Made by a program: the position numbers and the translations under genes. From Turnera subulata (Eukaryota; Streptophyta; Magnoliopsida; Malpighiales; Passifloraceae), in NCBI GenBank assembly GCA_028386065.3, contig JAKUCV010001966.1:342288-406287 (forward strand): a stretch of 64,000 bases of DNA, read 5' to 3'. A model generated the notes under the pieces. The model was not told the DNA's origin. It saw only the letters and a list, made by a program, of their open reading frames with translations, and did not search any database. How positions within the stretch are numbered: position 1 is the first letter of the stretch; each line of letters begins with the position of its first letter. Shown one piece after another: positions 14,551 to 14,697 of this stretch.

Positions 14551-14697
14551 TACCCTTCTTTTACCCGACTAAAACATTCAGCTAGTTGCTATTGGGTCTA
14601 CCGTAGTACGACAGAGGCCCAGTTGCCATTAGGTTGGTGTTTTAGGTACCATTAGTAGAGGGTGAAGGTGAGACCGTGACTGTTTCTAGAGTAAAAG
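14551..14697 (-). other. In-place complemented segment: missing integrase core readable only by reversing without complementing
   Basis: Read normally on either strand this 147-bp stretch gives nonsense. Reading the + strand letters from 14697 down to 14551 without complementing gives, in frame with both neighbours, the expected integrase core: [14 protein letters not shown], then [16 protein letters not shown], which holds the first catalytic Asp region. The left edge joins in frame to the DTLDKLAK residues and the right edge to the RGRP residues after the HHCC finger. Thus the bases are the complement of what is expected at the same positions, not an inversion. Edges are good to a few bases. 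Confidence 0.88.

Follow-up and report, generated by a model that had tools for sequence, protein, structure and literature searches.

In-place complemented blocks in a Ty3/gypsy-type retrotransposon of the Turnera subulata draft genome and their probable origin in the assembly

Results

The retrotransposon and its neighbours

The window, by which we mean the whole stretch of 64,000 nucleotides that was analysed, comes from the draft assembly of Turnera subulata (G000; 518.7 Mb, 7125 contigs) and corresponds to C1780:342288-406287. It contains an LTR retrotransposon in which two blocks are written as in-place complements, that is, with the order of the bases kept and each base replaced by its complement. 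The features of this element are as follows.

10727..19917, minus strand: host element, a Ty3/gypsy-type LTR retrotransposon with chromodomain (TG...CA ends, 5-bp target-site duplication GTTTT)
10727..13564, minus strand: 3' LTR, from the alignment of the two LTRs
13599..14534, minus strand: pol reading frame with the rest of the integrase, an SH3-like domain and the chromodomain (PF24626; PF00385 above its cut-off)
14549..14708, strand ".": block 1, in-place complement of 160 bp, from the column comparison with 39 copies
15112..16575, minus strand: pol reading frame with reverse transcriptase and RNase H (PF00078, PF17917, PF17919)
16821..17014, strand ".": block 2, in-place complement of 194 bp, from reversed against ordinary matches in 24 sequences
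17159..19917, minus strand: 5' LTR, from the alignment of the two LTRs

Reverse transcriptase, RNase H and integrase follow each other in this order and a chromodomain closes the C-terminus, which together with the LTRs and the target-site duplication is the arrangement of Ty3/gypsy chromovirus-type retrotransposons. The order rests on profile matches to PF00078, PF17917, PF24626 and PF00385 (the last at 27.8 bits against a cut-off of 25.1), and the integrase core itself is block 1. The two LTRs align in two pieces, at 98.4% and 98.7% identity. The pol frame also shifts at 15180-15230, just past the RNase H domain, so that this copy is broken outside the blocks too. For the anomaly described below the chromovirus identity is irrelevant; the family serves as the ruler that exposes the blocks.

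Other mobile elements are present in the window. A copia-type element at 1-4500 is split by a repeat (about 922-2510, some 1.6 kb long) of which the genome has many copies, and 50940-55669 holds a second copia-type element with a gag domain and 291-bp terminal repeats that are 96.6% alike. At 59917-61049 a DDE_Tnp_4 transposase piece adjoins a Myb/SANT-like frame, a pairing which we take to be arranged as in PIF/Harbinger elements.

Block 1 covers the start of the integrase core

Block 1 lies over the beginning of the integrase catalytic core. The preliminary description, made from the letters alone, had claimed that the core is present as an in-place complement over 14551-14697 (147 bp) and that normal reading fails there on both strands. 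Both statements are borne out. Read from right to left, the plus-strand letters of this span form one single reading frame, and its ordinary reading has stops in all three frames of each strand. Seen from the coding minus strand, the letters are reversed without being complemented.

We compared block 1 in ungapped columns with 39 copies from the same genome (L009-L047). These were chosen with a 601-bp query across the block, which gave 80 matching pieces for the best 40 of 2322 candidates. In the 39 copies other than the window the match to the query breaks at query position 247-252, and in those with a listed match for the second half it restarts at 410 with the same spacing; an ordinary search found no match within block 1 in any of the 39. 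At the left edge, position 14548 is identical to the window in 39/39 copies and 14549 is the complement in 38/39. At the right edge, 14708 is the complement and 14709 identical, each in 38 of the 39. The edges are sharp to one base and the length is preserved. The span first proposed was therefore correct as to the block but fell 2 bp short at one edge and 11 bp at the other, with the true extent of 14549-14708 adding 13 bp.

In its written form block 1 is identical to a copy at just 0-4 of 154 positions, much less than the 25% that unrelated sequence should show by chance. When it is complemented, 147-153 of the 154 positions are identical in 37 of the 39 copies; the exceptions are L012, in which the ungapped columns lose register, and L034, which has a run of N there. 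The comparison with other genomic copies that had been proposed as a check shows that they match the complemented block and not the written letters. Searched as reversed letters, the block matches the copies at up to 99.4% over 160 bp. A further test requires no relatives and judges the reading direction from base composition with models of orders 2, 3 and 4. Block 1 scores -14.0, -12.9 and -13.2 bits respectively, and no 160-bp tile in the scan of the window scores as low (mean +7.3 and sd 6.0 at order 2). We regard the observation of an in-place complement as confirmed.

A second block in the same element

The preliminary description made no mention of block 2, which lies between the pol reading frame and the 5' LTR of the same element. 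When the window and the 39 copies (236,385 bases) were searched against themselves with reversed letters, 82 rows resulted and the window took part in every one: they pair block 1 with each copy, and 16821-17014 with the sole copy reaching that far. After more sequence was fetched, block 2 was covered by 24 sequences. The reversed match starts at 16821 in all 24 and ends at 17014 in 19, at 16995 in four and at 16860 in one. The ordinary match stops at 16820 in 21/24 and restarts at 17015 in 17 and at 17017 in two, with no match after the block in the remaining five. The composition test did not single out block 2 (+2.1, +6.6 and +10.8 for orders 2, 3 and 4).

Reversed letters of 275,996 bases, comprising the window and 65 loci, gave 128 matches at E<=1e-6, and none of these lay away from blocks 1 and 2. 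Against the rest of the window, the reversed window letters had 18 weak matches (E 0.023 or worse), none of them at either block, because the window has no second copy of those parts. A translated search of the reversed window against its own open frames returned weak rows only, from the tandem-repeat frames of the LTR. For L051, two reversed matches of 28 bp (E 8.9e-4) were judged to be chance.

Further blocks on other contigs

Queries made from the in-place complement of two further parts of the element matched the assembly at 21 places, each on a different contig and none on that of the window. The complement of window 14709-15908 matched two of these, on C4192 and C590. In C4192 (L078) the block is 171 bp long and ordinary matches abut both its edges, at 1498 and 1670; in C590 (L079) it is 197-200 bp long, with abutting ordinary matches that end at 1500 and start at 1701. 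The complement of an LTR piece, 17159-17801, matched 19 places on 19 contigs (E from 9e-93 to 9e-8), with matched parts of 41-199 bp that reach at least 115 bp in nine of the 19.

The flanks were examined for 14 of the 21 places, namely L078, L079 and 12 of the 19 found with the LTR piece. Ordinary family sequence surrounds nine of these 12 blocks on both sides (L082-L089, L091) and three on one side (L080, L081, L090). For L082 and L083 the block sits in place to the base, with ordinary LTR sequence on either side. Where two edges could be placed (n=6), block size is 139-200 bp. With the two blocks of the window the total comes to 23 places on 22 contigs, from queries that span only about 2 kb of one family. 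In-place complement blocks recur on unrelated contigs of the same assembly, and those with placed edges are blunt, with length and order preserved. Between the 39 copies, at about 4.5 kb each, no such block was found, nor was one found in the copia element at 1-4500.

The blocks look independent rather than inherited

In a search of the 518.7 Mb assembly at E up to 10, which skipped very common words, the letters of 14551-14703 within block 1 had no match but themselves, and the same is true of the letters of block 2. A real change of some age would be expected in further members of a mobile family, so the uniqueness of the letters leads us to reject an inherited block. A group of four LTR blocks, L084-L087, is also informative. 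These lie at one spot of the LTR beside a tandem array, and their edges differ when they are aligned. Likeness is much greater inside the blocks than outside, and L086 and L087 are identical at 54/54 bases within them while their flanks differ. Because the edges are different, descent from one ancestor would not yield this pattern. Recurrent gaps at an awkward spot, each closed with pooled family sequence, would look like this. Judged from unique letters and differing edges, the blocks look independent and would not have been passed on between copies.

Shared descent of the places found with the LTR piece had been considered, since C4261 and C1914 have the same query extents, four matches end at query 620 and four at 470. 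The idea was dropped when eight of them had been fetched, as the shared ends are where that LTR subfamily stops resembling the LTR of the window; the differing true edges of the four aligned cases also speak against it.

The content of the blocks

The median identity of complemented block 1 to the 39 copies exceeds that of every single copy to the others (39/39), and at 98.1% it is the highest among 23 segments of the element. The 160-bp neighbours of the block rank 3 of 39 and 8 of 39 by the same measure, and the other 14 segments tested for centrality have ranks from 1 to 31 of 37-39. Each 51-mer of the complemented block is present in at least one copy and it has no private bases, in contrast to the flanks (14478, 14509 and 14779). 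Block 1 appears to be family-centre sequence inside a more diverged copy, as would be expected of a gap patch made from pooled repeat reads.

Block 2 gives a different picture from that of the highly central block 1. When complemented it is 99.0% like L059 and 95.4% like L068. Of the remaining 22 sequences, 21 are 77.8-83.5% identical to it, and the match to the last one, L070, extends over just 40 bp. If it is a patch, being close to just two of the 24 sequences, it would derive from a minor subfamily.

Discussion

We conclude, with a probability of roughly 0.96, that the blocks are a property of the assembly and not of the plant DNA. The same flaw occurs at other places of the draft genome, which makes it almost certainly an assembly error and not biology. 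The preliminary description had favoured an error of assembly, gap filling or file handling as the leading explanation, and the blocks on other contigs, the sharp edges, the unique letters and the consensus-like content of block 1 uphold that preference. Most repeat copies are without such blocks, and block 2 does not resemble a family centre; both count against an artefact. A fault limited to pieces that had been turned would fit both the block-free scaffolds and the mostly block-free copies, although this is a guess.

The best explanation is that gap-fill patches were reversed but not complemented. This is well supported as an artefact, and the software step involved is one we infer. Short gaps within repeats would have been closed with patches from reads pooled over many copies. 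Such a patch would have the right content, order and length, and in some scaffolds the opposite strand sense. It might then have been reversed without complementing, either as it was joined or on turning of the scaffold. Relative to the strand of the patch itself, what is written would simply be the reverse without the complement, and no further assumption would be needed. In favour of this reading, the assembly has unclosed gaps in the same repeat. L034 (C143:49187-53687), for example, has a 72-base run of N at locus 2338-2409, after which the contig end before the gap appears a second time; the two ends overlap, and this unclosed gap falls in the same part of the element.

One conceivable route, a guess to which we would give even odds, is that a patch in lower-case letters went through a reverse-complement routine in which only capitals were tabulated. 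Such a routine would reverse the fill and leave its letters unchanged. At least one assembler, Meraculous, reports gap-filled sequence in lower case (PMC3158087). The letters of the assembly analysed here are all capitals. We also asked whether the edges could reflect a de Bruijn word length. Of the lengths between 21 and 71, none accounts for both edges of block 1 or of block 2: a length of 71 is compatible with the right edge of block 1 and fails at its left, and for block 2 there is no fit. This test was discarded.

The blocks resemble errors of draft gap filling in being short, blunt-edged and length-preserving, in lying inside repeats where runs of N remain, and, for block 1, in having content like that of the pooled family. 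They differ from the usual forms of such errors, which are collapsed, chimeric or wrongly turned patches. In the open-licence literature that was searched we found no description of a patch reversed without complementing.

A deliberate or test edit, in which stretches of the window were complemented on purpose, was the other option raised in the preliminary description. The operation is one that could be scripted exactly, and two blocks do lie within one element. The assembly itself, however, carries the same letters (601/601 and 10,000/10,000 bases compared) and has 21 more places on other contigs, with differing edges. Editing local sequence would also not make block 1 more consensus-like than its flanks. 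We consider an edit very improbable; the window alone was not edited, and the proposal that it was altered on purpose is not supported.

It is more improbable still that the blocks are real DNA. This would call for an unknown process that exchanges the strands of a duplex of 140-200 bp in place, with order kept, many times in one genome. A single genome with many separate cases, alike in size (139-200 bp, n=6), is what such a process might leave. Unique block letters, blunt edges and family-centre sequence within a more diverged copy in block 1 argue against it. DNA strands have polarity, and an exchange of strands always reverses the order. To our knowledge no polymerase, recombination or repair step yields an in-place complement.

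An ordinary inversion, insertion or gene conversion with a reversed match by chance, which the decayed host element with its other lesions might suggest, is already refuted, since an inversion gives a reverse complement detectable by the ordinary search that matched in none of the 39 copies, and the match of up to 99.4% over 160 bp faces zero chance matches at E<=1e-6 in the 276 kb control.

Reading the blocks as reversed, uncomplemented patches removes a claim that would contradict the polarity of DNA. It also means that a draft plant assembly contains patches which read wrongly on both strands and so escape ordinary homology searches and gene finders. Such patches break reading frames and hide domains. 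They can be found fast by a search with the letters of abundant repeats, reversed and left uncomplemented, and other drafts could be screened in this way.

Genes elsewhere in the window

Outside the mobile elements, we observed a gene for a MAPKKK17/18-like protein kinase at 35363-36787, whose best named matches (62-67%) are in Hevea, Ricinus and Manihot of the Euphorbiaceae. Two genes for glycine-rich proteins with signal-peptide-like starts are located at 7438-7950 and 22470-22922.
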